Shown in pieces: positions 4,959-24,363 of a stretch of DNA of 42,674 nt. The notes beneath the pieces are model-generated. The model saw only the letters and a list, made by a program, of their open reading frames with translations, had not been told where the DNA came from and made no database searches. A program made the position numbers and the translations under genes. The stretch's first letter is position 1; every line of letters starts with the position of its first letter. Source of the stretch: a virus. The stretch spans positions 1-42,674 of IMG/VR virus record IMGVR_UViG_3300031623_000012, one strand, 5' to 3'.

Positions 4959-6716
4959 TTAAAAATTCATCTTGTATTTTTTAATCCAGTCCTTAAAAAT
5001 CCATGCAGGAACAATCGCCTTACCAGCTTTTTGACTTGCCTTAATTACGTTAATTTTACTGTCTTCGCCTATAGAATTTTTGTAAAACGTATTAAGGTTA
5101 CTATCAATATTGGTTGTTAACCAATGTCCTATAGGAACTGTCCAACCAGTTTTTCCTTTATTAATAATTGCATCAGGCATAATTCCTTTATATGCAATTT
5201 TTGTTAACATTTTAGTTTCGTTTTTGTTTGTACCTATTTTATTTTTTGTTGGAATATTTAAACAATATTGCATAAATGTTTTTGATGCAAGTGGAAAACG
5301 CCCTTCCATACCATATGCCATTCCGTATTTGTCATTACGATTAAACATTTCTTCTGGTACCTGTGCTACACAATCTAGAGCCATATAAGATGCTACCGGG
5401 TCATTAGGATTCCATAGTTCATCAGTATAACATTTTGCAAACTCTTGTAGTAAGGTGTCGTTTGTAATTGGATTTTCTAATAATTTTAAAGGACGTTTAA
5501 TTCTACTTAACCATAATTTTAATACTGCATTCCAACTATCCAACCCATTTTCAAGACCTTGTTTTTTTAACCACTCAGGATTTCTTAACATTTTCCAATA
5601 TTTTGGATATCCGCCAAGTATCTCATCTCCCATATCGCCAGCTATTGTGATTACTATATCTTGTTGTGATAAAAATTTATTAGTATAACAATACATAGCC
5701 ATACTTGGATTGTACACAGGTTGTTCCATATAGTATATAGAATCGTCCCATGAGTCTATAAATGCTTGTGGTGTTATTTTAACTTCGGTGTGATTAAATT
5801 TTTCTATGTTTGCTATAACCAAAGCACAATCAGAATCTTCATTATAGTCCTCATCAGTTTTAACATTAGGATACATTTTGTTTGTAAAGGAATTTACTTC
5901 TTTTCTAATTTGTTTAAGTTCGTATGCAACTAAACTTGAATCTAACCCACCACTCAAAAACACACCAATTTTTCTTCTACCTATTGAACATTGTTTAACG
6001 GCTTGTTTAACCATTGTTCTAAACTCTTTAGGGTCAAATGATTTGTTGCTGTTTGGTTTTATATAAACTCGTTTAGTTTTTATTATTTTTTTATTTGTTA
6101 TATCGTATACAATAGTCTCACCTGCTAATAATTTTTTAATTCCAGTAAAAAAAGTATTTCTTAAAGCATTAATTCCAGTACGACTCATAAAACTAACTGC
6201 AAGTTTGTCAAGTGTTCTTGCATTAGGTACACGGTCAATCATACCTTTTATTTCAGAACCAAATATTAATCCTTGTGATACTTCGGCATAAAATACAGGT
6301 TTTATACCTGCATGGTCTCTACTTAATGTAATTTGCTTTTTATCTACCTCGTAGTATGCAAACCCGTGCATTGAATCAATTTCGTTAATAAAGTCTAAAC
6401 CAAATTTGTCTAGTCCCCAAGCAAGTAGTTCTGTATCACAACCTGTAGTACCAGCAAACCCGTTGCTATTGTATTTTTGTTTTAGTTCGTAGTAATTAAA
6501 TATTTCCCCATTGTATACAAGTATGTTTCCTTTAGGTGTTATCCACGGTTGCTTAGATACGTTTGGATCAGCCATAATGCTTAAAAGATTATGCCCTAAT
6601 GTAACAGTATTATCGTGCCAAACACTTTGTCCGTCTGGTCCTCGATGTTTACATTTGTTAATATATTGATTTATAAATTCAGGATCTTTATCAGTTATTC
6701 CGTATATGCCGCACAT
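4959..6716 (-). CDS. asnB: Glutamine-hydrolysing asparagine synthase (AsnB-type amidotransferase)
   Basis: This 585-residue protein is full length for the family. Met-Cys at the start gives the N-terminal nucleophile of a class II glutamine amidotransferase (MCGIYGI). 'VYNGEIFNYYEL' near residue 70 supplies the Asn-Gly-Glu pocket. The synthetase domain has the ATP-pyrophosphatase loop SGGLDSS near 253 and a later 'AGDMGDEILGGYPKYW' segment. The family amidates aspartate, but homologues in polysaccharide clusters amidate uronic acids or amino-sugar acids. Here the gene lies inside a glycosyltransferase operon with one-base overlaps, so amidation of a sugar carboxylate is as plausible as asparagine supply. 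Catalytic residues look intact. Confidence 0.93.
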   Translation of the reverse strand: MCGIYGITDKDPEFINQYINKCKHRGPDGQSVWHDNTVTLGHNLLSIMADPNVSKQPWITPKGNILVYNGEIFNYYELKQKYNSNGFAGTTGCDTELLAWGLDKFGLDFINEIDSMHGFAYYEVDKKQITLSRDHAGIKPVFYAEVSQGLIFGSEIKGMIDRVPNARTLDKLAVSFMSRTGINALRNTFFTGIKKLLAGETIVYDITNKKIIKTKRVYIKPNSNKSFDPKEFRTMVKQAVKQCSIGRRKIGVFLSGGLDSSLVAYELKQIRKEVNSFTNKMYPNVKTDEDYNEDSDCALVIANIEKFNHTEVKITPQAFIDSWDDSIYYMEQPVYNPSMAMYCYTNKFLSQQDIVITIAGDMGDEILGGYPKYWKMLRNPEWLKKQGLENGLDSWNAVLKLWLSRIKRPLKLLENPITNDTLLQEFAKCYTDELWNPNDPVASYMALDCVAQVPEEMFNRNDKYGMAYGMEGRFPLASKTFMQYCLNIPTKNKIGTNKNETKMLTKIAYKGIMPDAIINKGKTGWTVPIGHWLTTNIDSNLNTFYKNSIGEDSKINVIKASQKAGKAIVPAWIFKDWIKKYKMNF

Positions 6717-8931: not shown

Positions 8932-9669
8932 ATGAAAAACCTTATTATCCAATATTATATAGACATTAACAGATATTCACAACCAAAGTTTAATGGTATT
9001 GCTCCAAATACAGTTGAAAAGTATTCTGAATACAGTTTTAAAAATTATTGTGCTAAATTTGGACATGATTTTTTAAGAGTTACCGAACCAAACTTTGGAT
9101 ATATGCATCCAACCTGGGAAAGATTTGATCTTTGGTTTAATTCTAAATGGTTAGATGAATATGACCAAATATTATATGTAGATACTGATGTTTTTGCACT
9201 TGATCATGCTCCGGATATATTTGCACAGTACAATGATCTAACTACATTTAAGTCACCAGCATATGGCAAATACAGAGGACTATCTACAAGTAACATTAAG
9301 TTAAAATTTAAAGATACTATACTGCGAGATTGTGAGCCAAAAAAAGTCAGCGATACATTTTTTCAAACAGGTGTATGGATGCTTACAAAACAAACAAGAG
9401 ATAAAATGATGCCATGGGTTGAACGTTATATGGAGTTTGATGGACAATGTGATGATGGACAGTTTTTAAATTGGGCAGTTATTGAAAGCGGAGTAGAATA
9501 CCAAGATATGAATCCTATGTTTAATGTTAAGAACAATGGACTAAAAAAGAGCTGGAATTATAACAACACTTATTTTTTACATTCAGCAGGTGGACAAAAA
9601 TATCATACAACATCTAAAATACATACGTTTTTATCTAACACATTTCCTGATGTTAATCTAAGTGTGTAA
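8932..9669 (+). CDS. GT-A glycosyltransferase (GT8-like), paralogue of 12915-13601
   Basis: The 245-residue protein contains 'MHPTWERFDLWFNSKW' and the metal-binding 'LYVDTDVFAL' (DTD near residues 83-85), features of small GT-A enzymes that use nucleotide sugars. Its N-terminal 110 residues align by eye with the gene at 12915 ('HPT-x-ERFDL-x-FN', 'Y-x-DTDV', 'AP-x-IF-x-Y'), so the two are paralogues. A C-terminal 'YFLHSAGGQKYHTT' His may be a metal ligand, as in GT8 enzymes. It is a single plus-strand gene between minus-strand operons with its own late promoter. Its 3' end overlaps the convergent GT61 gene by 17 bases. Confidence 0.75.
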   Translation: MKNLIIQYYIDINRYSQPKFNGIAPNTVEKYSEYSFKNYCAKFGHDFLRVTEPNFGYMHPTWERFDLWFNSKWLDEYDQILYVDTDVFALDHAPDIFAQYNDLTTFKSPAYGKYRGLSTSNIKLKFKDTILRDCEPKKVSDTFFQTGVWMLTKQTRDKMMPWVERYMEFDGQCDDGQFLNWAVIESGVEYQDMNPMFNVKNNGLKKSWNYNNTYFLHSAGGQKYHTTSKIHTFLSNTFPDVNLSV

Positions 9670-10741
9670 GCAACTCAGCAACATTAACTTTTAAATTAAC
9701 CAAATCTTTTAATTTTTTATTTTTAGTTTTTTTAATATTAACCTTGTCAGTTTCGGCAAGATAGACCGAATGTTTCAATCCTAAATGATGGGAAAGAATT
9801 GGATATACTTTTTTATCTATAAATTCTTTATGTTGTATCTCAATAACTTTTGTATCTTTAGCACACCATAGTAAGTTTATAAGACCTGCCCCATGAGCCG
9901 CTAGAATATGTGTTGCTTCTGCAAATACTTTAATTTGTTCTTTTATAGTTAATGTATCAAGTGTTATAGTTTCCCAACCTTTTAGTGCTAATAATAACTG
10001 TTCTTGATTTGTAATATTTCTATTACTAGCATCTTTTCTTGTTATAAAAATTTTTCTATGTGGTTTAAATGATTCTCTATAACCAACGCCCAAGTTACCT
10101 AAATGTTGTAACCATAGAGGTAAGTTTGGAGTTACAATACCGTCTAGATGGTTACTCATAGAAGGTACTATTAATTGCTGGAATTTCCATGTTTCGTTTT
10201 TAGGCATGACATGATATTTTAATTCTGGAAATATCTCATTGGCAACTTTATTAAAATAATTGCTTTGGTTAGACAATATAAAAATATATTTTGAAAAGTT
10301 TGTACTCCATCTTTTTTCAAGTAAACGAAATTTAGATATTACGTCAATCCAAATATGCCATGGATTTTCAGCACTATCTTCGTCAATTGGCAACCAAACG
10401 TAAGTCCATGTTTCGTTGAACTGTTTAGTTATTGGAGGCATTTTGATATCAACAGCATCTCCCCAACGGGTAAACATTTTATGAACTTTATGTGGTTTAT
10501 TTTTAGCTTTAGATGTTAATGGCCACACATGATTTGTTATTAGATGTCGATCATGAGTAACTATTGCTGGTAAATTAGTAGCAGAACAGTTAGAAAAGTC
10601 TGTAACGAATGTAGGCAGGCTCCTCCATTTATTTTGTTTTACCAATGAATGCCAAGTAACATTGAATATAAATTCGGTGTCAATAATTTCTGCTCGAGAA
10701 AGGAAGTATTTGATGTCCGTAATATTTTTAACCAATTGCAT
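9653..10741 (-). CDS. GT61 (DUF563) family glycosyltransferase
   Basis: The 362-residue protein carries the C-terminal GT61 signature: 'HRKIFITRKDASNRNITN', 'IKEQIKVFAEATHILAAHGAG' (AHGAG near residues 280-285) followed by 'LINLLWC' and 'KVIEI'. GT61 proteins transfer xylose, GlcNAc or related sugars; bacterial and phage members occur in surface-polysaccharide loci. The N-terminal third is poorly conserved. The gene faces the SGNH gene at 10771 across a 29-bp gap and converges on the GT-A gene at 8932. The family call is firm from the RKD and HGAG motifs; substrate unknown. Confidence 0.82.
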   Translation of the reverse strand: MQLVKNITDIKYFLSRAEIIDTEFIFNVTWHSLVKQNKWRSLPTFVTDFSNCSATNLPAIVTHDRHLITNHVWPLTSKAKNKPHKVHKMFTRWGDAVDIKMPPITKQFNETWTYVWLPIDEDSAENPWHIWIDVISKFRLLEKRWSTNFSKYIFILSNQSNYFNKVANEIFPELKYHVMPKNETWKFQQLIVPSMSNHLDGIVTPNLPLWLQHLGNLGVGYRESFKPHRKIFITRKDASNRNITNQEQLLLALKGWETITLDTLTIKEQIKVFAEATHILAAHGAGLINLLWCAKDTKVIEIQHKEFIDKKVYPILSHHLGLKHSVYLAETDKVNIKKTKNKKLKDLVNLKVNVAELLTHLD

Positions 10742-10770
10742 TTACAATAATTATACTATAAAATAGCAGT
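10742..10770. promoter_or_regulatory. Back-to-back -10 elements in a 29-bp divergent gap
   Basis: Toward the minus gene (ATG at 10741) there is TATAAT at 10750-10755, eight bases before the start. Toward the plus gene (ATG at 10771) there is TATAAA at 10757-10762, also eight bases before the start. No good -35 box is seen for either. Both predicted transcripts would start 0-2 bases before the start codon. Confidence 0.4.
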
Positions 10771-11439
10771 ATGATTAAATTATTATCAAATGGATGTAGT
10801 TTCTTAACCACTAGACCAAGAGACGGAGTAGACACATTTGTTACCAAAATTTTGTCGGAAAATTATAATTTAGAATTAATTAACCTTGCTATGGGTGGCA
10901 GAGGAAACAACAGAATAAGTTTTTCTACTAAAACATGGTTTGAACAGTACGGACACAAAGATACATTTGCAGTTATTGGTTGGTCAAGTGCCTATCGTAA
11001 TGATTATGTTACTAACGACCCCCGGAAAAAAGATAGATTAGATGGTACAGATCTAACATGGCGTACATGGAACACGTTAGATAATGTTGGGTTTCTCAGA
11101 AAAAAACTGCCAAAATTGTGCCATGAGAACGATGCAATAATGAGTTTCTTAGATAATGTATTTGACCTACAAAATTATTTTGAAAGGAAAAAAATTCCTT
11201 ACGTAATGTATAATGCATTACCTAATAATTTTAAAAGCAACGTAAGTGATTTTGATATTATTACAAAAGCAATTAATATGGATAGATTTTTTAATCCTGA
11301 GGTTAGTCAGTATGAATATATTACAGATAAAAGATTAATAGTAAGTCCTGAGGATCCACACCCATCAACAGAAGGACATTTACAATGGGCAACACAACTA
11401 AAAGAATTTATAGATGCTAACAATTTACGCACCAGTTAA
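10771..11439 (+). CDS. SGNH/GDSL-like hydrolase, candidate O-acyl esterase or transferase
   Basis: The 222-residue protein shows SGNH blocks in order. Block I is 'LSNGCSF' with the nucleophile Ser near residue 9 (GCS replaces GDS). A block II-like 'NLAMGGRGNNRI' contains the oxyanion Gly and Asn. Block V is 'DPHPSTEGH' near residue 197, with the Asp-x-x-His pair shifted to Asp-Pro-His. Such enzymes add or remove acetyl or other acyl groups on sugars, which fits the neighbouring glycosyltransferases. It begins a four-gene plus operon and overlaps the next gene by 26 bases. No signal peptide is seen, so a cytoplasmic substrate is expected. Confidence 0.75.
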   Translation: MIKLLSNGCSFLTTRPRDGVDTFVTKILSENYNLELINLAMGGRGNNRISFSTKTWFEQYGHKDTFAVIGWSSAYRNDYVTNDPRKKDRLDGTDLTWRTWNTLDNVGFLRKKLPKLCHENDAIMSFLDNVFDLQNYFERKKIPYVMYNALPNNFKSNVSDFDIITKAINMDRFFNPEVSQYEYITDKRLIVSPEDPHPSTEGHLQWATQLKEFIDANNLRTS

Positions 11440-12223
11440 TAATAAAAACAGCAAGGCTTGGGAAGTTTTTAACGGAGTAAAAAAGTCTTGGCCCGATACT
11501 GTTAATATATTGGATAATACAGCAACAGAGCCATTAACTAATTCAATGTTTTGGGGATTTGTTAATAATAATTTGTTATTAGTAAAAAAATTAGAAGCAC
11601 GTAAACAGCAGTTTTGGTTTACTGATACACCATACTTTGGAAGATTTGACAATAATAATTTAAAATCCAATAATCATTATTGGCGTATTTGTAAAAATAG
11701 AATACACGTTCCTTTTATAAAAGATTGTAAGTCTGATCGATTTGAGAAATTTGGAATGAAAGTTCAAGCACCTAACTTTAAAGGAAAAAATATTTTAGTT
11801 TGTCCAAGCTCTCCTGGAATTCATCAGTATTTGGATAGACCCAATTGGTTAAAAGAAACGCTAGAAGAAATTAAAATATACACAGACAGACCAATTAAAA
11901 TAAGACATAAGCCACGCGGCAGAGGAACGTCAGGCCCTAGTGAAGCAACAGTTCCTTTAGCAGAAGATTTAAAAAACGCTTGGTGTTTAGTTACATCTTG
12001 TTCAATTGCCGCGGTAGAGGCCCAGTGTATGGGTATACCTGTTTTTTGTGATAAAAAAAGTTTTGCAAACGATGTTTCAAGCAATGAAGTAAAACATATA
12101 GAAAATCCGTATTTTGTTGGTGCTGAAGAGTGGCTATATAGTTTAGCATATCAACAGTTTACTCCAGAAGAGTATGCAAATGGAAAAGCAGTAGAAATTT
12201 TATTAGATAAAGGAATACTATAA
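11414..12223 (+). CDS. KpsS-like GT-B glycosyltransferase, paralogue 4
   Basis: The 269-residue protein is related to the three minus-strand paralogues. It has 'RPIKIRHKPRGRGTSG', 'DLKNAWCLVTSCSIAAVEA' and the shared tail 'YSLAYQQFTPEEYANGKA'. The donor loop is T-S-C-S rather than N-H-S-S, and RPHP is replaced by RHKP, suggesting a different donor or acceptor from paralogues 1 and 2. The start overlaps the SGNH gene and the stop overlaps the FkbM start (TAATG), so it is coupled to both. Confidence 0.7.
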   Translation: MLTIYAPVNNKNSKAWEVFNGVKKSWPDTVNILDNTATEPLTNSMFWGFVNNNLLLVKKLEARKQQFWFTDTPYFGRFDNNNLKSNNHYWRICKNRIHVPFIKDCKSDRFEKFGMKVQAPNFKGKNILVCPSSPGIHQYLDRPNWLKETLEEIKIYTDRPIKIRHKPRGRGTSGPSEATVPLAEDLKNAWCLVTSCSIAAVEAQCMGIPVFCDKKSFANDVSSNEVKHIENPYFVGAEEWLYSLAYQQFTPEEYANGKAVEILLDKGIL

Positions 12224-12918
12224 TGCCTAAACTTAAGAAAATAGCTGATAAACAATTTAGTTTTCCGTTAGTAGGAAAAGAAATATTGTTTGCTAATAAC
12301 CCAGGGCAAAAAACATATATAAAAAATAGAGTTGACCGGTTACTATCTAAAGAACCAGAAACTATTAAATGGCTAAACGGAATGGAAAAAGATTCTGTAT
12401 TTTTTGATATAGGTGCTAACATAGGAATATATTCATTATACAGTGCAATAAAAACAGAAAATGATGTGTATGCATTTGAACCACATTCAGCAAATTATAA
12501 AAACTTATTAGACAGTATTAATCTTAATAAACTTGAAAATTGTCAAGCCTGGTGTATGGCAGTAAGCAATAGAATTAGCTTATCTCATATAGGTGTAAAA
12601 AATATGCACGAAGGAGTAGCGGATAATGTTGTAGACAACAAAGGTGGCCTTTATCATGGATGTATTGAAATGCATTTAGATTATCTTGTAGGTAAAAAAA
12701 TATTGCCACACCCAGATTATATAAAAATTGATGTTGACGGGTTTGAAGATAGAGTATACAAAGGTGCAATATTATCAATACAACAAGCCAAGTCAGTATT
12801 AATTGAAATTGATCAAAAGCATGAACACATTGTAAGTCAAATAATCAATTTAGGGTTACATCTAGAGTCTAAACACAGAAGAAATAGTGAAGAACATAAT
12901 TATATTTTTGTAAAATGA
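12223..12918 (+). CDS. FkbM-family SAM-dependent methyltransferase
   Basis: The 231-residue protein has the FkbM layout. SAM motif I is 'VFFDIGANIGIYSLY' near residues 58-72, followed by the acidic end of strand 2 in 'VYAFEPHSANYKNLL'. The family-typical 'DYIKIDVDGFEDRVYKGA' lies near residues 165-182. FkbM enzymes O-methylate sugars or polyketides, and in phage and bacterial glycan clusters they cap or decorate sugar chains. The gene is coupled by TAATG to the preceding GT-B gene and by ATGA to the following GT-A gene. Confidence 0.88.
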   Translation: MPKLKKIADKQFSFPLVGKEILFANNPGQKTYIKNRVDRLLSKEPETIKWLNGMEKDSVFFDIGANIGIYSLYSAIKTENDVYAFEPHSANYKNLLDSINLNKLENCQAWCMAVSNRISLSHIGVKNMHEGVADNVVDNKGGLYHGCIEMHLDYLVGKKILPHPDYIKIDVDGFEDRVYKGAILSIQQAKSVLIEIDQKHEHIVSQIINLGLHLESKHRRNSEEHNYIFVK

Positions 12919-13601
12919 AACCGTTAGTTGTTCAATTTTTTGTACCTGCAAAACAATATAAAACTCCAGATTATAATAATATCGGAGTAAGCCAAGAGTT
13001 GTTTGACTATTCTGTAAAGTCAGTTAAACAATATGCAAAAAAATATGATCTAAGTTATAAGTTAGTTACTGATCAAAAAATAAATTGGATACACCCTACA
13101 TTTGAAAGATTTGATTTATTTTTTAACGATGCCTGGTGGAAAAATTACACACATATATTATATTTAGATACTGATGTAATTGTTTGGCCTAGAGCACCAA
13201 ATATATTTAACGAGTATTGGGGAGCAGATTCATTTAAACCTGTACGTGATAGAATAGCTTTAAGGCAAGGTTTAACATTACATAAAAATAATGCAAAAGG
13301 CACTTGTTTAGAAAAGTTTAAATCAGAAACATTACGAAACAATAGATTTAATGCAGGGGTGTTTATGTTAACAAAAAATTCAGTAGATAAAATGAAAGAA
13401 CATTTAGAGTATAAAACATTAAAAGGTGACGATAATGAGATGCTCATATATGCTATGCTAGAATCAGGTGTAGATGTTGAATGGTTAGATTGGTCTTATA
13501 ATAAGAAAAATGGTGTAAATGCAAACTTTGGTCATGCAAGTGGTTATCAAAAATTTAAACCAAATTATGAAATGTTAATTAAAGCAAAAGAAATATTTTA
13601 A
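12915..13601 (+). CDS. GT-A glycosyltransferase (GT8-like), paralogue of 8932-9669
   Basis: The 228-residue protein has 'IHPTFERFDLFFNDAWW' and 'ILYLDTDVIVWPRAPNIF', giving the DxD metal site near residue 82. It shares the N-terminal half with the gene at 8932 but diverges after residue 110, where acceptor recognition usually lies. It is the last gene of the plus operon and its stop overlaps by four bases with the convergent 2OG-oxygenase gene. Soluble, no signal peptide. Sugar specificity unknown. Confidence 0.75.
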   Translation: MKPLVVQFFVPAKQYKTPDYNNIGVSQELFDYSVKSVKQYAKKYDLSYKLVTDQKINWIHPTFERFDLFFNDAWWKNYTHILYLDTDVIVWPRAPNIFNEYWGADSFKPVRDRIALRQGLTLHKNNAKGTCLEKFKSETLRNNRFNAGVFMLTKNSVDKMKEHLEYKTLKGDDNEMLIYAMLESGVDVEWLDWSYNKKNGVNANFGHASGYQKFKPNYEMLIKAKEIF

Positions 13602-15962: not shown

Positions 15963-16410
15963 CTTCCATACCCGCCACTCTTAACTTAACAATGTTTGTA
16001 ATTTGCCATTGTTTTTGGTCGAGCCCTTTGGTGATGCCTAGCCATTGGTTTCTTAATAATGCAAAGTCGTTTATAATTTTTGCCATGTCAACTACATCAG
16101 ATTCTCCGTCAACATATTTGTCAGCATCTCTGCTTGTTAGCTTTTTATTATAACTTTCTAAAAAAGTTCTAAATGTTTTTGATCTTAATCTACGATATTC
16201 AATGTTTAAATATTCTAGTATTGCTTCAATTTCTTGTAATTGATTAAACCTGTGTTCCACAACGCCAGGCATTGACGCCGATGCTTTTTCTAAATTGCCC
16301 CAAATAGAGCATTCTTTTTTTGCTTGTAATAGTTCATTATCAAAATGAATTATACAGTCTGGTATTTTGCTTATATTTTTACTAACTTCAGTATACCAAT
16401 TCACCATCAT
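15946..16410 (-). CDS. uvsY: UvsY recombination mediator
   Basis: The protein has ~154 residues (T4 UvsY 137). The core 'ECSIWGNLEKASASMPGVVE', the middle 'EYRRLRSKTFRTFLES' and the C-terminal 'LLRNQWLGITKGLDQKQW' and 'IVKLRVAGMED' follow the UvsY pattern in marine T4-like phages. UvsY loads UvsX recombinase onto gp32-covered single strands. The start is uncertain: the frame opens at 16443, but GGAG at 16411-16414 lies beside in-frame ATGs at 16410 and 16407 and a GTG at 16404, so an internal start is favoured. It is immediately downstream of uvsX in the same transcription direction, consistent with function. Confidence 0.82.
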   Translation of the reverse strand: MMVNWYTEVSKNISKIPDCIIHFDNELLQAKKECSIWGNLEKASASMPGVVEHRFNQLQEIEAILEYLNIEYRRLRSKTFRTFLESYNKKLTSRDADKYVDGESDVVDMAKIINDFALLRNQWLGITKGLDQKQWQITNIVKLRVAGMEDATIK

Positions 16411-16633
16411 CTCCGTATTCGTTTTCGTCGTCATCATTAGCATACACAGAATTGACCGCTTCTTCTAATTTAGGGTCATAATCAGACGATGCTTTAAGTT
16501 CTTTATCTTCAACACCAATATCTCTTAATGTGTTAATAAAGTCAACTGCTCCGTCTGTCTTGCTTCTTTCTGGTATGTAGTGAGAAAATGCGTTCCAAAT
16601 ACGTTCAATGTCTTCGTGTGTCATATCAGCCAT
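16388..16633 (-). CDS. Small acidic conserved protein between uvsX and uvsY
   Basis: The 81-residue acidic protein starts 'MADMTHEDIERIWNAF'. The tail 'VYANDDDENEYGDDGELVY' is highly acidic, a pattern typical of proteins that mimic DNA or contact basic partners such as ssDNA-binding or recombinase proteins. A GGAAG ribosome site lies seven bases before ATG 16633; an alternative ATG at 16624 overlaps the uvsX stop. No named family is recognised. The position between uvsX and uvsY suggests a recombination role (inference). Confidence 0.65.
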   Translation of the reverse strand: MADMTHEDIERIWNAFSHYIPERSKTDGAVDFINTLRDIGVEDKELKASSDYDPKLEEAVNSVYANDDDENEYGDDGELVY

Positions 16634-17690
16634 CTATTTCTTCCTTGGGTTCGGTTGTTGGTTCTATACTTGCTAATTTATCAAATTCTTTCATTAGCAT
16701 ATCCAATTTGGTTCCGACCCAGGCTTTTCTAAAGTCAATATGTTCTTTTCCTTTAGAATCTACGTATTTTAATCTATTTCCGGTTTGTACTAGGATGCCT
16801 TTTTTCTCAAATAAGTCTACTAATCCGCTATAAGGATCCATTCCAGTATCATACGGGATTTTAACTTGCACTGATTCAAAAGGTTTAGCATATCTTGTTT
16901 TCATAACTTTACAAGCGGCTCTAATACCTCTTACATCAGTAATTTTGTTACCTTTAGCGTCTTCTTTTAATTTTAGTTTTTTCATTGCAACAACAATACT
17001 TGATGCATATATGAATCCTTGTCCGCCTGATATTTTATCATCTGGATTAAACATATCTTGTGATGCGTATGTGTGGTTGGTTGCCATAAGTCCGACATTC
17101 CAACTACCAAACATATTAACACAGTTTCTTACAAGTGCTGTTAATGCCTTAGGTTTTCTACCCAAATCACCTTTCATGTCACCTGCTTCAAACTGATTAA
17201 CATCAGTTGGAGTTAACAACATACCCAAACTGTCTATAACAAATAGCACTTTTGGTGCTTCTTCTTTGTCGTCTGCGTGTTGTTCTTTATAAAGTTTCAT
17301 AAAGTCTGAAACTGTTCTTGCCACATCATCAACCATAGATAAACTTAATTTTAAAAGTTTATCTTCCGATGTGTCTACTTTTAATGCTTGTAGCCAAGTT
17401 TCGTCTAATGCGTTCTCGGTATCAATTAGTATAACAAATATACCTTGATCCTGTGCGTTCTTAACAATATTTCCTGCCGCTATGTATGATTTGCCTGACC
17501 CAGATTCTCCTGCAAGTACAGTTACTTTACCTAGTGGAATTCCTTTGTTAAAGTGACCAGTCATTAAATAATTTAATGCATAGTTTCCTGTGCTAATCCA
17601 ATCAGTAGGATCACTAAATCCTATTCCTAATCCTTGAATTGATTTTGTTATGCTTTTTCTAAATTTTGTTGCGTCAAATGGTTTTGTCAT
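16626..17690 (-). CDS. uvsX: UvsX RecA-like recombinase
   Basis: The 354-residue protein has the RecA core: Walker A GESGSGKS at 61-68, the strand-2 acidic 'ILIDTENALDETWLQAL', Walker B 'VLFVIDSLGML' near 150 and 'LMATNHTYASQDMFNPDD', a loop-region equivalent. 'KISGGQGFIYASSIVVAMKK' is typical of UvsX. It catalyses strand invasion for recombination-dependent replication and repair with UvsY and gp32. Promoter sequences lie only nine bases from the ATG, and there is no Shine-Dalgarno, suggesting a leaderless or near-leaderless transcript. Full length compared with T4 (391). Confidence 0.95.
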   Translation of the reverse strand: MTKPFDATKFRKSITKSIQGLGIGFSDPTDWISTGNYALNYLMTGHFNKGIPLGKVTVLAGESGSGKSYIAAGNIVKNAQDQGIFVILIDTENALDETWLQALKVDTSEDKLLKLSLSMVDDVARTVSDFMKLYKEQHADDKEEAPKVLFVIDSLGMLLTPTDVNQFEAGDMKGDLGRKPKALTALVRNCVNMFGSWNVGLMATNHTYASQDMFNPDDKISGGQGFIYASSIVVAMKKLKLKEDAKGNKITDVRGIRAACKVMKTRYAKPFESVQVKIPYDTGMDPYSGLVDLFEKKGILVQTGNRLKYVDSKGKEHIDFRKAWVGTKLDMLMKEFDKLASIEPTTEPKEEIDG

Positions 17691-17698
17691 AATTTAAT

Positions 17699-17727
17699 AT
17701 TTTAGCATACAAGGTCCTAATCGTCAA
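17699..17727 (-). promoter_or_regulatory. Sigma70-type promoter of uvsX
   Basis: On the minus strand, -35 TTGACG (17722-17727), a 17-bp spacer and -10 TAAAAT (17699-17704) precede the ATG at 17690. The -35 box falls in the loop of the hairpin at 17707-17747. The predicted start is about 17692, two bases before the ATG. Confidence 0.65.
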
Positions 17728-17747
17728 TATAAATTAAGACCTTGTAT
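17707..17747. repeat. Perfect 10-bp inverted repeat between gp32 and uvsX
   Basis: ATACAAGGTC (17707-17716) pairs with GACCTTGTAT (17738-17747). After one mismatch, TAAT/ATTA continues the stem, leaving an 11-base loop. There is no long U-run after it on the minus strand, so termination of gp32 transcription would be imperfect at best. It may be an attenuator, an mRNA 3'-end stabiliser or a protein-binding site. It encloses the uvsX -35 box. Confidence 0.7.
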
Positions 17748-17754
17748 TTGGTTA

Positions 17755-18777
17755 TTATTTTGCTTGTCTTGATCTTATTAGTTTTAAGATGTCTTCTGCT
17801 CTTTTGGCACTATCACCTGCAGGTTGTACAGTCGATTGTGCTGTTGGAGTTGAAGATGGTGCTAACACCGGTGCCGCTTCTGTTACTGGCATCGTTGTTG
17901 CTACCGCTGGTGCTACTTCAGAATTTGGTATATCTGATGTTTTTTCTACTGCAACAGGTCTACTTGCTGTTGGTACAGACACTTGTCTAGCACCTACGCC
18001 TGCAGGTCTATAATATTGCCCATACTTCTCAAGATCATACGCTTCACCCTCAACAGATGCTTCAAATAATTCTTTGATTATTTTTACTTCTGCGTCGGTT
18101 GGTTGTTTTGGTCTATAGTCTGATAAATTGTGTAAACCAAATTTATCAATAGCCGCTCTTTCTTTTTCATCGAGAGCACGTTCTCTTCTTGACCATTTTG
18201 ATGTTGAGTAATCAGCGTATCCACCTTTAGAAGTTTTATTAACTCTAAAGTCAACACCTTTTACCATATCAGTTGGTAACTCTTCCATCTCTGGATCAAG
18301 TAATGCCGATCTAATAATGTTAAAAATTTGAGGTCCAATAATAAATCTTCTAATTGGGTTCTCTGGTGTTGTATCTTCGTTTAATGGATTAGTTACAACA
18401 AAACCTTGGAAAATATAACTTTTCTTTTTCCAATATTTTCTGCCCATGTCTTCCATGCTTTTATCTTTAAACCATGGTCTAACTTCTGTTAGAACTGGAC
18501 AAGTTTTGCCATACATTTCCATACACGGTACTTGTACTTGAATTGGACGAGAATCAGTTTGACCTTTAATACCTGCAAAAGGTAGTTTGATCATATTTCT
18601 CTCAGTCCAAAAGAAAGTGTTCGCAGTATCTCTGTCAGGTAAAAATCTAACAACAGATTCCTGTCCTTCTTGTATGTTCCAGTGTGGGTAAATGGCGTTG
18701 TCTCCGCCTGTTTGTGAACCTGAGCGATTTGGTTCGTTTGCTTTTAACTTCGCTCTTATTTCAGCCAATGTAGCCAT
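17755..18777 (-). CDS. 32: gp32 single-stranded DNA-binding protein
   Basis: The 340-residue protein has a gp32-type N-terminus (MATLAEIRAKLKANE, the cooperativity region), an OB-fold core with 'WNIQEGQESVVRFLPD' and 'KKKSYIFQGFVVTNPL', and an Ala/Pro/Thr-rich linker before the C-terminal tail (residues ~265-340). In place of T4's zinc knuckle (one His, three Cys) only Cys85 and Cys93 remain, and the second Cys of T4 CPVC is Leu (CPVL), so zinc binding is probably lost. The tail is less acidic than in T4. A strong AAGGAGG site lies 10 bases upstream of the ATG. gp32 coats ssDNA for replication and recombination with UvsX/UvsY. Confidence 0.92.
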   Translation of the reverse strand: MATLAEIRAKLKANEPNRSGSQTGGDNAIYPHWNIQEGQESVVRFLPDRDTANTFFWTERNMIKLPFAGIKGQTDSRPIQVQVPCMEMYGKTCPVLTEVRPWFKDKSMEDMGRKYWKKKSYIFQGFVVTNPLNEDTTPENPIRRFIIGPQIFNIIRSALLDPEMEELPTDMVKGVDFRVNKTSKGGYADYSTSKWSRRERALDEKERAAIDKFGLHNLSDYRPKQPTDAEVKIIKELFEASVEGEAYDLEKYGQYYRPAGVGARQVSVPTASRPVAVEKTSDIPNSEVAPAVATTMPVTEAAPVLAPSSTPTAQSTVQPAGDSAKRAEDILKLIRSRQAK

Positions 18778-18820
18778 AATGTAAGCCTCCTTGTGTGCCT
18801 ATGTTGTTGTTTGCCTAAAT

Positions 18821-18849
18821 GTATATTAAGCTTCTTATTCTTAATATAC
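18821..18849 (-). promoter_or_regulatory. gp32 leader hairpin, candidate translational operator
   Basis: GTATATTAAG and CTTAATATAC form a perfect 10-bp stem with a 9-base loop, 44-72 bases before the gp32 start codon. It is followed by an A/C-rich unstructured stretch and AAGGAGG. T4 gene 32 mRNA has a structured operator at a similar distance that nucleates gp32 autorepression. No loop-pairing partner for a pseudoknot is obvious, and no U-run follows, so it does not look like a terminator. Confidence 0.6.
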
Positions 18850-18854
18850 TACTA

Positions 18855-18862
18855 TATTTATC
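18855..18862 (-). promoter_or_regulatory. Late-promoter-like GATAAATA before gp32
   Basis: The site matches seven of eight bases of TATAAATA. The predicted start (about 18849) coincides with the first base of the gp32 leader hairpin, so the transcript would carry a 5'-terminal stem-loop. Confidence 0.4.
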
Positions 18863-18871
18863 TAATAATGT

Positions 18872-19276
18872 CTAGTAAAAAATCTTATTTTTATCGAAAA
18901 TAAAGAATGGATAATCAAATTTAAAAGTATAGGTACCATTATATGACAAATAACCATGCGTTTTTATATCCTCGCTCTTGTCAGTAATGTAAGATCCTAA
19001 TATATCAAATTGCTTTAAAGAATCTTTGGTAATTTGACATTGTATATCTTTTACAATAACAAATATATCTTTTGTAATTTTATTTCCTTCTAATACAGTA
19101 TCTCTATCGTTTTTGTTTTTTAAACTAATAGATAATGTGTTTGCGCCTATAACAGGGTTTAATTCAAAAGAATTTTTATTATATTCCCCAGAATGAATTG
19201 TTTCGTTATTAAAAATAATTTCACCTGCAGGACATTTATTGGATCTTTTACCAATTTCTATATTAAAATTAATCAT
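18872..19276 (-). CDS. Small beta-rich protein partnered with radical SAM gene
   Basis: The 134-residue protein looks all-beta. 'GANTLSISLKNKNDRDTVLE' and a C-terminal 'GYLSYNGTYTFKFDYPFFIF' recall small beta-sandwich proteins I associate with marine T4-like phages ('N-x-L-x-I ... G-x-NG-x-W-x-F-x-F-x-x-PFY'); this is recollection, not a search result. The Gly-Ala-Asn and terminal aromatic strand resemble carbohydrate-binding modules. It starts directly after the radical SAM stop codon, so the two are co-transcribed. Function unknown: a substrate of the radical SAM enzyme or a binding partner are both possible. Confidence 0.7.
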   Translation of the reverse strand: MINFNIEIGKRSNKCPAGEIIFNNETIHSGEYNKNSFELNPVIGANTLSISLKNKNDRDTVLEGNKITKDIFVIVKDIQCQITKDSLKQFDILGSYITDKSEDIKTHGYLSYNGTYTFKFDYPFFIFDKNKIFY

Positions 19277-20800
19277 TTAATTTTTACTTTTGTTCCATTC
19301 ACGAATTAATCGATCGGCCATTTCTTTTTTTGTTTTATATCTGTATTCTGTCATGTATCCGTTAGTATGACAATATTCTATTAATTCGGTCCACCAAGTT
19401 ACCCTATTAATAAATGTGTTATCTGGATTTTGTTTACTATACCAATAATCATATATTAATCCTACGCCGGGTTTTACATCTTCCCAAGTAATATCTAGTT
19501 GTCTAGCATGAGTATCATATAATGGAGATCCTGGTAATAAATGTAATACACCTACTGGATTGACACTCATTTTTGGAAATGGAATATCTTTATATTTTTT
19601 TACTAACGCAAGTGTTTCTTCGAAATCTTTTCTTGTTTCAGTAACATAGCCAGTCATTATATTCCATTCTTGAGTAATACCAACATTATAAAGGCTTTCA
19701 ATCATTAAATGTAAATCATCATTTGTAAATTTTTTCTTCATGTGTGTTCGCACTGCTTCACTGCCCGATTCGACACCAATAGTAACGTGTTTACAGCCAG
19801 CTTCTGCCATAAGATGATAATCATCAGCAGTAGTTTGTCCTTTTGGTCGTGCAATATATTCTCCAAAATAATTTATTGTTCGTGGTAATCTTTTTGCAAG
19901 TGCTGTATTCATTTGTCTAAATGCTTTCATTGATCCGTTTATTAACGAATCAGATAACATAAAATTTGTTATTCCTTGCTTCTCATATATCTCAATCATT
20001 TCATCAGCAATTCTATTACCGTCTTTAAAGACAAATTTTGGTTCAAATGAAAATACATCACAAAATGTACATCTTCTTACACACCCTTTAGAACCGGTTA
20101 TGGTAGCCGCAACATCGTGGGTATATAAAACAGATTTTTGTTCAGCTGAAAGAAAAATATTTGAATTGTTTTTATAAAGATCTAATTTATAATCAATATA
20201 AGAAGGTGCAGGTAATTGGTTTAGTTCTTCAGCTGTTAATTGTGTATTAGTATTAAATTTTCCTTTTTTATTATTAAGTAGAATATCGATTAATAAACTT
20301 TCACTTTCATTTATTACAATGGTATCACATAGTCCAGTTTCTATTAGCACATCAGACATTTTTTTATTATTTTTGTAAGAATGGTTGGTATTATCGTCTT
20401 TACTAATACCTGGTCCACCAAGTATAATTTTTTGTTTAGGTTTAAATTTTTTTATATAATAACAAATATCGTGTGTAAATGTTAAACTTTGATAACTTAA
20501 TAGTGAAAATCCTATCCAGTTAGATTTTAAATTTATTAATTCTTTTGCTTTTTCTTCCACCCATTGATGATACCAGTCATAGGCTTCAACAGACATCTTA
20601 GTAAAAAACATTAGATATTGTTCTACATCTACAGCAATTTTTTTATTATAATATGCGATTTGTAATTCTAGATTGTAATCTAATGTTGTAGCTTTAAGTC
20701 CATTTGAGTTACATATTGCTTTTAGTAATGCCGGAGCCATTGGCATGGCATCAATTTTGGTAAAAGGAGTATATACAAATACTGCGTGATACTTTATCAT
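19277..20800 (-). CDS. Radical SAM protein with B12-binding-like N-terminal domain
   Basis: The 507-residue protein has a cobalamin-binding-like Rossmann domain (about 1-170; 'IGFSLLSYQSLTF', 'IILGGPGIS') but lacks the usual D-x-H-x-x-G cobalt ligand motif. The radical SAM core contains CX3CX2C in 'GCVRRCTFCDVF' near residue 240, then 'HVTIGVESGSEAVRTHM' and 'IMTGYVTETRKDFEETL', the SAM-contacting strands of B12-type and methylthiotransferase-like enzymes. The chemistry cannot be assigned; methylation, ring closure or cleavage are options. It needs an electron donor, and the 7Fe ferredoxin at 6716-7039 could serve. A late-type promoter lies upstream and the small beta protein follows. Confidence 0.85.
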   Translation of the reverse strand: MIKYHAVFVYTPFTKIDAMPMAPALLKAICNSNGLKATTLDYNLELQIAYYNKKIAVDVEQYLMFFTKMSVEAYDWYHQWVEEKAKELINLKSNWIGFSLLSYQSLTFTHDICYYIKKFKPKQKIILGGPGISKDDNTNHSYKNNKKMSDVLIETGLCDTIVINESESLLIDILLNNKKGKFNTNTQLTAEELNQLPAPSYIDYKLDLYKNNSNIFLSAEQKSVLYTHDVAATITGSKGCVRRCTFCDVFSFEPKFVFKDGNRIADEMIEIYEKQGITNFMLSDSLINGSMKAFRQMNTALAKRLPRTINYFGEYIARPKGQTTADDYHLMAEAGCKHVTIGVESGSEAVRTHMKKKFTNDDLHLMIESLYNVGITQEWNIMTGYVTETRKDFEETLALVKKYKDIPFPKMSVNPVGVLHLLPGSPLYDTHARQLDITWEDVKPGVGLIYDYWYSKQNPDNTFINRVTWWTELIEYCHTNGYMTEYRYKTKKEMADRLIREWNKSKN

Positions 20801-20814
20801 ACCTAATTATATAG

Positions 20815-20822
20815 TATTTAAT
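20815..20822 (-). promoter_or_regulatory. Late-promoter-like ATTAAATA before the radical SAM gene
   Basis: The predicted start is about nine bases before ATG 20800, leaving a tiny leader that contains TTAGG as the only ribosome-site candidate. It matches six of eight bases of the T4 consensus. Confidence 0.4.
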
Positions 20823-20842
20823 CTAGGTGGTCAAGTATGAAA

Positions 20843-22747
20843 TTATTGGTATTTAGAAAGATATTTTATTCTAGCAATTTGAAGGCCTGCTTCGCCTGTT
20901 ACTCGGTCACTGTCGCCTTCAATGCCTGAGATGTTTTGTGCGTGATCGTCTGTTTTATTTTTAATTGATTCTACTATGCTAGTTCTTGATTCTTTTAGTT
21001 TTTCTGTATTAAATTTTTCAATAGCAGTTTCAATTGCAGTAGTTTTGTCACCACCTTCTTTTAAATGTTGTTCAATAAAAGGTTTGATGTCTTCAAATTT
21101 ACCACTAAATTTTTTCTTGTCTGCTTTTTCTTTCTCTGCTTTTTCTTCTTGTTCTTTGTCGTCTGCTTCATCATCTGGATCTCTAATGACCATATCTGGA
21201 GCATTGTCTTCTTTAGGATTAATTGTATTGTCTACCCAATTTTCAAATTCTGCTGTTTCGCCTTTTGCTTTTTTATCTAATTTAGGATGTGCTTTTGGTT
21301 TAAATGCATTAGCATCCATTCTTACTTCATCTGCATATGCAGGATCTGATTGCATTTTTTTATAGTCGTCAATATATCTTCTTGCTAATTGTACTGCAAT
21401 TGATTTATTTTTTGGCCAATCGCTATCAGGATCATTAAACAATTCACCTTCTCTTTCTAAACCGTCAGCAACTCTAGATGCAAAGTTGGCAACTCTTTCG
21501 TCGTTGTTATCAGCAGTAAGCATACGTGATGCTATGTCAGAAAGAATACTTCCTAACATTGTATTTTTATTATTAAATTTTGTTACTGATAACATTTTAT
21601 CAGCCGAATCATCTTTTCTTAATATTAATTTTTTCTTAGGGTTAGTTAAAAATCCTTGTACTATTGCTCCATGATCAACAATTGGTTCTGCAGGAGCATC
21701 AATGGCATCATCTTCTTCGGGTTTATATTCGCTCATAATTCCGTGTATTAATGGTAATGCGTCCTCAACCCTATCATCTAGATTTTTTAATGTAAATTTT
21801 TCTCTGTATGCACTTCTTTCATCGTCACTTAATTCTGCAACTGCTGATGGTTTAAAGTTTTTAATAGTTTCATCATAATGTGCTTGTTTGTTTAAGTTTT
21901 TCATGTACGTTCTTAAATTTTCTAATTTTAATTTTGTTTGTTCAATTATATCACCAGCATTATCATTTAATTGATCTTTGTGTGAAACGTATCTAGAAAA
22001 TGAATTTAATTGTGCAATATTTTCTGATGTTTTAATAATGTGTTCTCCAAATTCGTCATGTGGTCTTCCTCCATTAGCAACGTGTCTTGTCATTGCTCTT
22101 GCACCTGCTAAATGAGTAATTGGATATTTGAATCTTTCACCATCTTCGTTTTCAATGTATAGTGAACTAATATGTCTAGATCTTGCACCAGGTACGTTTT
22201 CATCAACTGGTCCTGAGTGTCTAATTATTAATCTTGTTTTGTCTAAGTTTTCGTATGAAGATTTTGAAGTTCCTGTTAAGCCTTCTGCAACTGGTTCTGC
22301 AATTGGTGCCTTTTCAACACCTGCTAATTTAGTAATTCTGTCTATCTCTTCTTGCATATCATCAGTATTTACCGTTTGATTCGCATCTGCGAGATTTTGA
22401 TAATCTTGCTTCGATAGGTTCGATTTAGTTATATCACGCACATCAAAACGTAATTGATGCTCTACTGCAAAGTCTTTTAATTCTTTAAGAAACGCATACC
22501 ATTCTGTTTTGCTATCTTCGTCAATTTTGTTTACTAAATCCCGGTTGTAAAATACTTTCATATTTTCACCGTCTGCTAATGACACACTTACACGTCCAAA
22601 TGTATCAGCATCTTCTTTAAATTCAAAGTCAAAAAATACAGCCTCACCAGCATCTGCTGTAGGTTCGCCCGATTCATTACCTATTTCTATATTAGAAAAT
22701 TGTGATCTAATCTTATTAAACAAGTCAGCTGACGTTTTTGGGTTCAT
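20843..22747 (-). CDS. Large conserved marine-phage protein of unknown function, probable late gene
   Basis: The 634-residue acidic protein has no enzyme motif I recognise. The N-terminal region 'AVFFDFEFKEDADTFGRVSV' is followed by a 'RSRHISSLYIENEDGERFKY' and 'THLAGARAMTRHVANGGRPH' region (about residues 185-235). A central helical part follows, then a charged coiled-coil segment (~540-580, Glu/Lys repeats) and a C-terminus 'EAGLQIARIKYLSKYQ'. The motif 'DRITKLAGVEKAP' near 140 recurs as 'IMKLAGVHQ' in the protein at 24634. An exact TATAAATA promoter six bases before the ATG classes it as late. A virion or morphogenesis role is inferred from position behind terminase and from promoter type. 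Confidence 0.75.
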   Translation of the reverse strand: MNPKTSADLFNKIRSQFSNIEIGNESGEPTADAGEAVFFDFEFKEDADTFGRVSVSLADGENMKVFYNRDLVNKIDEDSKTEWYAFLKELKDFAVEHQLRFDVRDITKSNLSKQDYQNLADANQTVNTDDMQEEIDRITKLAGVEKAPIAEPVAEGLTGTSKSSYENLDKTRLIIRHSGPVDENVPGARSRHISSLYIENEDGERFKYPITHLAGARAMTRHVANGGRPHDEFGEHIIKTSENIAQLNSFSRYVSHKDQLNDNAGDIIEQTKLKLENLRTYMKNLNKQAHYDETIKNFKPSAVAELSDDERSAYREKFTLKNLDDRVEDALPLIHGIMSEYKPEEDDAIDAPAEPIVDHGAIVQGFLTNPKKKLILRKDDSADKMLSVTKFNNKNTMLGSILSDIASRMLTADNNDERVANFASRVADGLEREGELFNDPDSDWPKNKSIAVQLARRYIDDYKKMQSDPAYADEVRMDANAFKPKAHPKLDKKAKGETAEFENWVDNTINPKEDNAPDMVIRDPDDEADDKEQEEKAEKEKADKKKFSGKFEDIKPFIEQHLKEGGDKTTAIETAIEKFNTEKLKESRTSIVESIKNKTDDHAQNISGIEGDSDRVTGEAGLQIARIKYLSKYQ

Positions 22748-22753
22748 ATAGTG

Positions 22754-22761
22754 TATTTATA
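22754..22761 (-). promoter_or_regulatory. T4-type late promoter TATAAATA
   Basis: An exact consensus on the minus strand lies six bases before ATG 22747. It sits in the 20-bp gap after gp17. The mRNA would begin within a base or so of the start codon. Confidence 0.65.
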
Positions 22762-22767
22762 GTATTC

Positions 22768-24363
22768 TTATCCGTATAGGTTTGCAAATATAGGCATTGG
22801 TGCTGTCCACTCTGATGTTCGATCAGTCCATTTTTCAAATATTTTAGGATCAAAATCTGCCAATACTTTCATCATACGTGTCATTAATAAACATGAACTA
22901 ACAAGGTCGTCATGTTGCCCGGGTTTTGCTTTAAAACTCATGCCAGTTGCGACAAAATCTTTTAATTCAGATATTAATAATTTTGAACAAAGTTTCATTT
23001 TATCGTTTTCGACTAATTCTTTAAATTTAGTACAAGCATCAATTTTGTGTTTTGCAGTTGTATTAAAGCCTCTTCTAAATTTTCTTCTATGTCCTTTTCT
23101 GATAGGTTCTGATAAAAACATACCTTGAATATTTTCTTCGCCAATATCCATAACTCTTAAAAGTGCCGCTTCACCTATTGCATTATTTTCCATACTATAA
23201 AATATTTGAGGTGATGCACTAGAATCTTTTTCCATAATTATTTCGCAAATATGTTGTGTAATCCCTTGTAGTATTCTAACTTGTTGATTCATCGGTGTTT
23301 CGTTATGATGCCATTCTGCTACTTGGTCCATTGTGGGTAATTCAAATACTTGTATAGCCGCATAGTCACCACCTGTTCCCATACTAGGATCTAATGAAAC
23401 CATGTAAGTCATACCAGGCGTTGGTCTTTTATACCAACGTACTTGTCCTGTGTTTTCTAAAGGAAGAGTACCTTCTAATTCTGCTAGTTTAGTAGAGTTA
23501 ATTAATGTTTCATCAAAGATTAAAAATTCACATTCGTGTTCCCTTTTAAATCTTTCAATACCAATTCTAGATCTTTCTGTTTCCGCCCATACCTCATCTC
23601 GGTCGGGGTGTTCTGACCAGTGTGCTTTCATGGCATAGAAACCATTAGTTCCTACTATTTTATCGTTGCCATATTCGTCGAATCTTTTGTTTGCCTCTTT
23701 CCAAATTAATGCAAATTGGTCTTCATCACTGTTTGGAGTTGAAGTAATTAAACATTTACCTCCAGTTGATAGTGTTGGAGATAGTGAAGTCCAAAATTCT
23801 TTTGCTTTATCGGGTGGTTGCACGAATGCAAACTCATCACAATAAATCATTGTTAAGGACATACCCCGTCCTGTGTTTTCTGTTGTAGTAGTTGCTGATA
23901 TTTTAGAACCGTTATCAAACTCAATCGAATTTCTATTATATTGCACAACACCTGCTTTAATCCAACTAGGTAACATTTCATAAGCATAACGCACCCTAGA
24001 CATAATGTCTGATGCTCCTGCGTATTTGTGTGCGGCAATTAGTATTTGTGAATCTGGTCTAAACATAGCATACCAAATAAGGTATCCCGATGCACAAGTA
24101 GTTTTACCTGTTTGTCTTGGTAGCATAGCAATACTAAATCTATTTTTATTATATGCGTCAATTAATCTTTTTTGGAACTCATATGGCTTGAACGGCATCT
24201 CACCTTTTACAGGATGTTGAATTTTCATAAACGTTTCCATAAAGAACAAAGGACCAGTGTCCTTGTTCATACACTGTTCAAGTTGTAACACCTGTTCTTT
24301 AGTGTATTTGTGCTTTTTATGGGCACGTTTTATCTGTTCACTATCTAATGAGACATAAGCCAT
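22768..24363 (-). CDS. 17: Terminase large subunit gp17 (packaging ATPase/nuclease)
   Basis: The 531-residue protein has ATPase motor motifs: adenine-binding 'FKPYEFQKRLIDAY', Walker A 'LPRQTGKT' (81-88), Walker B 'MIYCDEFAF' near 170 and coupling motif 'LITSTPNS'. The RNase H-like nuclease follows with 'SLDPSMGTGGDYAAI' near 325, an acidic Glu in the middle and 'GQHDDLVSS' near 487. It cuts concatemers and pumps DNA into the prohead with gp16 and the portal. Slightly shorter than T4 gp17 (610). A late-like CTTAAATA lies seven bases before the ATG. Confidence 0.95.
   Translation of the reverse strand: MAYVSLDSEQIKRAHKKHKYTKEQVLQLEQCMNKDTGPLFFMETFMKIQHPVKGEMPFKPYEFQKRLIDAYNKNRFSIAMLPRQTGKTTCASGYLIWYAMFRPDSQILIAAHKYAGASDIMSRVRYAYEMLPSWIKAGVVQYNRNSIEFDNGSKISATTTTENTGRGMSLTMIYCDEFAFVQPPDKAKEFWTSLSPTLSTGGKCLITSTPNSDEDQFALIWKEANKRFDEYGNDKIVGTNGFYAMKAHWSEHPDRDEVWAETERSRIGIERFKREHECEFLIFDETLINSTKLAELEGTLPLENTGQVRWYKRPTPGMTYMVSLDPSMGTGGDYAAIQVFELPTMDQVAEWHHNETPMNQQVRILQGITQHICEIIMEKDSSASPQIFYSMENNAIGEAALLRVMDIGEENIQGMFLSEPIRKGHRRKFRRGFNTTAKHKIDACTKFKELVENDKMKLCSKLLISELKDFVATGMSFKAKPGQHDDLVSSCLLMTRMMKVLADFDPKIFEKWTDRTSEWTAPMPIFANLYG

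Follow-up and report, generated by a model that had tools for sequence, protein, structure and literature searches.

A class-B-type radical SAM enzyme and a small CBM60-related protein are encoded by a conserved gene pair in uncultured tailed phages

Class B radical SAM enzymes, such as TsrM, TokK, OxsB, and MgmA, as well as PhpK and the RiPP C-methyltransferases, combine a Rossmann domain with a radical-SAM core that holds a CX3CX2C motif, and the DxHxxG motif is dispensable among them. The lower axial position of the cobalamin is taken by Arg69 in TsrM, which does not coordinate, and by Trp76 in TokK, and the residue two positions beyond the last Cys, which bridges SAM and cobalamin, is Glu in TsrM and Trp in TokK; Mmp10 is described as lacking the bridging residue, so this feature is not universal (PMC9692996). 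Sugar chemistry is represented in the superfamily by AprD4 (6fd2), a radical SAM diol dehydratase of the aminoglycoside paromamine, which, going by the title of its PDB entry, acts on a sugar-containing substrate. CBM60 (PF16841, 2xhh) is a calcium-dependent xylan-binding beta-sandwich that occurs as an appended module of hydrolases. Among tailed phages, the Campylobacter phages CP220/CPt10, marine EVGs, and pelagimyophages carry multiple uncharacterised radical SAM genes, and the portions of those reports available to us describe none with a conserved small partner (PMC2853527, PMC5332604, PMC7029224). Phage radical SAM genes have been counted for more than ten years, mostly without a function being assigned, and the literature searched (preprints and most subscription papers lay outside it) holds no description of the pair reported here or of CBM60-like partners in phages.

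The DNA analysed here, which we call the window, is the 42.7-kb viral record IMGVR_UViG_3300031623_000012 (42,674 nucleotides). By gene content (gp32-like SSB, UvsX, terminase, tail sheath, and tail-sheath stabiliser) it belongs to a T4-like myovirus, and the nearest relatives of its terminase are those of PA5oct-type Pseudomonas jumbo phages (54%). Pfam, AF2, and Foldseek identify a class-B-type radical SAM enzyme of 507 aa (19277..20800, minus strand), which is followed, with 0 bp between the two ORFs, by a CBM60-related small beta-sandwich partner of 134 aa (18872..19276, minus strand) identified by AF2, Foldseek, and profile comparison. A virion-structural-like gene and the terminase lie on the upstream side of the pair and the gp32-like SSB and UvsX genes on the downstream side, in agreement with an earlier sequence-only reading of this DNA that had placed the two genes between virion and replication genes. 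Measured against an 87%-identical relative, dN/dS is ~0.09–0.20 for the enzyme and ~0.37–0.43 for the small protein, and within the L013/L016 pair of loci it is 0.04–0.12 for both alike. Judged by their sequences, neither gene is spurious, and purifying selection acts on both. The window also contains a glycan-type cluster (9653–13601 and 4959–6716) of GT61, FkbM methyltransferase, GT8-like, and DUF6071-like genes, together with an asparagine-synthase-like gene; the cluster is about 5 kb from the pair.

The same reading had put the two genes under a late-like promoter, and this part of it did not hold. The intergenic stretch 5' of the enzyme gene (20801..20842, minus strand) lacks an exact copy of the T4-type late promoter TATAAATA, and one-mismatch matches to it are not enriched across the window (150 observed versus 171 expected from shuffles). 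The best promoter motif upstream of the enzyme gene is sigma-70-like, TTGACC-17-TATAAT (11/12 positions, 20834–20806); such sites show no excess in the region (17 versus 15.4 by chance), and this one would leave the mRNA almost leaderless, given how near it is to the ATG. Co-transcription of the two genes is likely because homologous pairs adjoin or overlap, with 45 of the 46 non-fused pairs overlapping or lying at most 1 base apart.

The larger protein matches Pfam Radical_SAM at 1.3e-16. Its [4Fe-4S] motif CVRRCTFC (residues 240–247; 20060..20083, minus strand) has the CX3CX2C spacing (C240-VRR-C244-TF-C247) noticed from the sequence earlier, and the three Cys are invariant in 70/70 homologues. 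The AF2 model (pLDDT 90.3, pTM 0.90) consists of an N-terminal Rossmann domain and a radical-SAM core, and the Pfam match, the invariant Cys, and this model agree on a CX3CX2C motif in a partial TIM barrel, as characterises the radical SAM superfamily. Residues about 1–200 (20201..20800, minus strand) are predicted to form a cobalamin-binding-like Rossmann domain, as indicated by the model, by invariant columns (D41 and the GG at 128–129), and by a weak Pfam B12-binding match at residues 82–135 (0.0064, under its cut-off); that match and the full-length Foldseek alignments to TsrM, OxsB, and TokK are consistent with the cobalamin-type N-terminal domain by which class B is recognised. Strongly conserved motifs of the family are GCVRxCxFCD, MxK, and DSLxNG, the last forming part of the signature DSLINGS in the window enzyme (residues 284–290; 19931..19951, minus strand), in which D, L, N, and G are invariant.

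The sequence-only reading had also remarked that the B12-like domain lacks the usual cobalt-ligand motif. DxHxxG is indeed absent from the window enzyme and from 70/70 homologues, but this loss does not exclude cobalamin, since TsrM and TokK have no coordinating residue at that place either. At the bridging position two residues after the last Cys, the family has Val (41), Ile (28), or Asp (1; n = 70) rather than the Glu or Trp of TsrM and TokK, and cobalamin binding by the window enzyme is best called putative. Foldseek places TsrM first (8.9e-17), AprD4 (2.3e-15) has the highest TM-scores among the fold matches listed (0.61/0.67), and MgmA, MiaB, OxsB, TokK, and CysS also match. Because AprD4 and MiaB, which we take not to be cobalamin methyltransferases, fit the fold about as well as the cobalamin enzymes do, methylation is only a candidate reaction of the enzyme.

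Although class B enzymes are its best Foldseek and NCBIfam neighbours, the window enzyme is only 10–15% identical to them in fold alignments and falls far under the curated sequence cut-offs. The nearest NCBIfam subfamilies (PhpK, RiPP C-methyltransferases, and ApyD) all have cut-offs far above its scores, and the best of them, PhpK, gives 106 bits against a 600-bit cut-off; a close match to a known biosynthetic enzyme, which would have told against the earlier proposal, was not found. Membership was likewise rejected for the RiPP C-methyltransferases (81 versus 282 bits), AprD4 (20.5 bits versus an NCBIfam cut-off of 500), and BchE (score far under the cut-off). On sequence and model, the window enzyme is a class-B-type radical SAM enzyme, and no name was found for its family. 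Among cultured phages, the search for homologues returned only Streptomyces phage SF3 (27%). A further difference from the class B enzymes is the dedicated CBM60-like partner, and we know of no such partner for AprD4.

For the partner, AF2 predicts a mainly-beta sandwich with a short C-terminal helix (pLDDT 84.7, pTM 0.76), so that the 134-aa beta-rich protein described earlier is upheld both as an ORF (18872–19276, minus strand) and as a fold. The best PDB match in Foldseek is 2xhh (prob 1.00, E 0.03, TM about 0.5), others being clearly weaker; the entry title refers to calcium-dependent carbohydrate-binding modules linked by circular permutation, which we take to be CBM60/CBM36. Pfam CBM60 does not match the window protein itself, reaches E 0.0082 in a relative, and gives sub-threshold matches in two distant family members (17.0 and 16.6 bits versus a gathering score of 28.2). 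A PDB sequence search with the small-protein profile gave no match, and a direct sequence search of cultured phages found no homologue. A single CBM60 sequence scored just 7% probability against the family profile, and therefore an alignment of 13 CBM60 domains was built from genomes belonging to the same phylum as the Bdellovibrionia match. With this alignment, hhalign gave 87–91% (P about 1e-6) over 116–118 columns, including the C-terminal NG strand. Column-shuffled decoys reached at most 0.5% (n = 58); this was a repeat of an earlier set in which one of 30 shuffles had scored 99.6%. Foldseek, Pfam, and the profile comparison thus concordantly indicate that the small protein is a remote relative of CBM60.

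The profile alignment lays the small family's NK...DT...D..V over the FxND...DRNLxV of CBM60, in which FxND...DRNL presumably provides the calcium and sugar ligands. This motif is not kept: K55, in the NKNDRDT loop (residues 54–60; 19097..19117, minus strand), stands at the Asp of FxND in 46/48 members, and of DRN only the Asp remains, as D70 (42/48). With Lys in place of the FxND Asp and without the RN, the small protein may no longer bind sugars. Conservation elsewhere includes P16 (43/48) and the NG (residues 113–114; 18935..18940, minus strand; N 32/48, G 38/48) of the C-terminal strand motif NGxYxFxFxxP. In contrast to CBM60 as a hydrolase appendage, the small protein is free-standing beside modification enzymes.

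An alignment-based scan of IMG/VR identified at least 491 viral loci encoding a relative of the enzyme, of which the best 80 of 491 were taken further, yielding a tree of 71 distinct enzymes that are mostly 25–37% identical to that of the window. The partner adjoins 47/71 of them (43 have it downstream, 3 upstream, and in 1 a single ORF encodes both), a proportion that describes these nearest homologues and is no frequency for the whole family. All 29 members of the window enzyme's clade (support 98) have a downstream partner, all close relatives (68–87%) with a readable junction have both genes in the order seen in the window, and in most loci whose enzyme is 30–37% identical to the window's, the small-protein HMM matches the gene right after it. 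Reciprocally, a search from a distant small-protein subgroup found the radical SAM gene adjacent in 9/9 loci. The partner is missing beside the other 24/71 homologues, the Bdellovibrionia copies included; among 12 whole records tested, those without an adjacent partner (G001, G007, and G123) contain no small-family gene anywhere, and several of the paired records hold additional small-family copies.

The arrangement of the pair varies around this association. The partner precedes the enzyme in L024, L051, L137 (which came from the reciprocal search), and one of the L076 pairs, and in L125 enzyme and partner are fused into one protein of 664 aa, which remained the sole example when further fusions were sought. 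The outer neighbours change from locus to locus, falling into 24 families upstream and as many downstream, and the distance matrices of enzyme and partner are correlated (r = 0.86 versus a null maximum of 0.18; 0.66 for pairs with enzyme identity below 60%). Co-occurrence, flexible order, fusion, changing flanks, and mirrored divergence argue for a functional association and not simple linkage. As far as comparison of sequences can tell, the two genes form a functional module in phages, and we regard this as strongly supported; the two-gene module was proposed from the window by itself, and co-occurrence of the two genes has proved pervasive in other phages.

Small-family genes also adjoin genes for other enzymes: Asp_Arg_Hydrox (Asp/Asn-hydroxylase-like) genes (L117 twice, L145), SPASM radical SAM genes (L148, L085), and an Anp1-like glycosyltransferase gene (L146). 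Since its relatives pair with hydroxylase-like, SPASM, and glycosyltransferase-like enzymes, the small protein looks like a target-binding subunit shared by several modification enzymes. We suggest, with a probability of roughly 45%, that the pair represents a conserved viral two-component modification enzyme, composed of a class-B-type radical SAM enzyme and a dedicated CBM60-like target-binding subunit. Computation shows how tightly the two genes are associated, which folds the proteins have, that the small protein is related to CBM60, and that its family is reused beside other modification enzymes. In the proposed mechanism, the enzyme would contribute a cobalamin-type Rossmann domain and a radical-SAM core with its [4Fe-4S] cluster, and the 134-aa beta-sandwich, translated straight after it, would capture the target, for which the likeliest candidate is a glycan or a glycosylated molecule, either produced by the phage or host or forming part of its coat. 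The radical SAM subunit would then abstract a hydrogen atom from the target and, if cobalamin is bound, methylate it; otherwise it would rearrange or dehydrate it, as AprD4 does with a sugar. The physical complex, the glycan target, the C–H chemistry, and the methyl transfer are what we infer. Of the targets named earlier (a virion protein, the partner itself, or a glycan), a glycan-type one is favoured on the strength of the CBM60 relationship, the place of AprD4 among the closest folds, the glycosyltransferase pairing, and the glycan cluster of the window (GT61, FkbM, GT8-like), and is weakened by the loss of the CBM60 motif.

In the strongest competing explanation, the small protein serves as the substrate: each enzyme would modify its own folded beta-protein, as RiPP maturases and protein hydroxylases do with the substrates encoded for them, and the modified protein would go on to serve in virions or infected cells. 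One dedicated paralogue per enzyme, its faster evolution relative to the enzyme, and a near-invariant K55 that could be the target residue would all fit; B12-type and SPASM radical SAM enzymes, Asp/Asn hydroxylases, and glycosyltransferases each include known peptide or protein modifiers, and the nearest matches include the RiPP C-methyltransferases and the protein methylase MgmA. We nevertheless think this unlikely, given that the protein is related to a binding module, that the L125 fusion would have to modify itself, and that no single residue would be expected to suit such unlike chemistries. A RiPP precursor with a leader and a cleavable variable core is also not what is seen: in the window protein the modelled strands run from residue 2 to 122, leaving a short tail, and the C-terminal KNKIFY is kept in most close relatives. 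Gene overlap and mirrored divergence would suit any stable complex, and small-molecule enzymes (AprD4, TsrM, OxsB, and TokK) are among the closest folds, so the partner could instead be a structural, stability, or electron-delivery subunit that binds no target, the enzyme's own substrate being a small molecule. This too we consider rather unlikely, as the same small family stands beside enzymes that are unrelated and would each call for a subunit of its own kind, and no redox cofactor motif is seen in it.

Modification of phage DNA or RNA would explain why the pair so often lies among replication genes (gp32/UvsX, gp46-like, gp61/gp41-like, and UvsW genes are among its neighbours), and MiaB-type tRNA enzymes have the same fold. 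Core genes are, however, widely placed in T4-like genomes, so that cargo ends up beside them; with no nucleic-acid-binding domain recognised in either protein, and with a CBM60-like partner, such hypermodification seems very improbable. We give still less credence to the two genes being ordinary auxiliary metabolic cargo, linked without a joint function. Phages of this type do carry many radical SAM genes, some in variable cassettes, going by the portions of the reports available to us (PMC5332604, PMC7029224, PMC2853527), and 24/71 homologues lack the partner, but the pair survives deep divergence, changing flanks, inversion, and fusion, the mirror correlation also tells against linkage alone, and the reciprocal co-occurrence strongly disfavours this explanation.

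The results as a whole suggest that many uncultured tailed phages carry a two-part system by which some target is chemically modified. One unnamed radical SAM family, with at least 491 IMG/VR loci, has a defining partner of identifiable ancestry, so that what was an ‘unknown auxiliary gene’ becomes the subject of a specific hypothesis open to experiment, and the small protein may be used as a marker for further modification enzymes in viral dark matter. More tentatively, and with doubts that outweigh our confidence, environmental tailed phages could share a modular decoration system. In it, CBM60-related adaptors of one family, each tied to an enzyme of its own (a class-B-type or SPASM radical SAM enzyme, an Asp/Asn-type hydroxylase, or a glycosyltransferase), would bring varied chemistries to a single type of polymer or surface, and the pair in the window would represent one of its branches.

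Several arrangements at other loci may be recorded here. Two enzyme/partner pairs lie near each other on one contig in L076 (4989–9108) and in L095 (1–6735). CBM60-like genes overlap Asp/Asn-hydroxylase-like genes in L117 (2590–4922, two in tandem) and L145 (2222–3446), and SPASM radical SAM genes in L148 (2475–4287) and L085 (6459–7959). In one unpaired enzyme clade, an Asp_Arg_Hydrox-type gene lies beside the enzyme (tested in L034, and by eye in L031, L035, and L036), and in L031 (8205–10010), L034, and L035 the enzyme homologue adjoins a gene of 601 aa that by eye resembles a TonB-dependent receptor. The Bdellovibrionia MAG L048 (4986–9060), whose genome is without any small partner, has two tandem enzyme copies followed by a gene that by eye resembles another radical SAM gene. 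Within the window, a search of 16000–23500 found no RNA families; downstream of the pair, the leader of the gp32-like gene contains a stem-loop (18778–18875, fold z −2.8), and the gp32 leaders of T4 are structured too.
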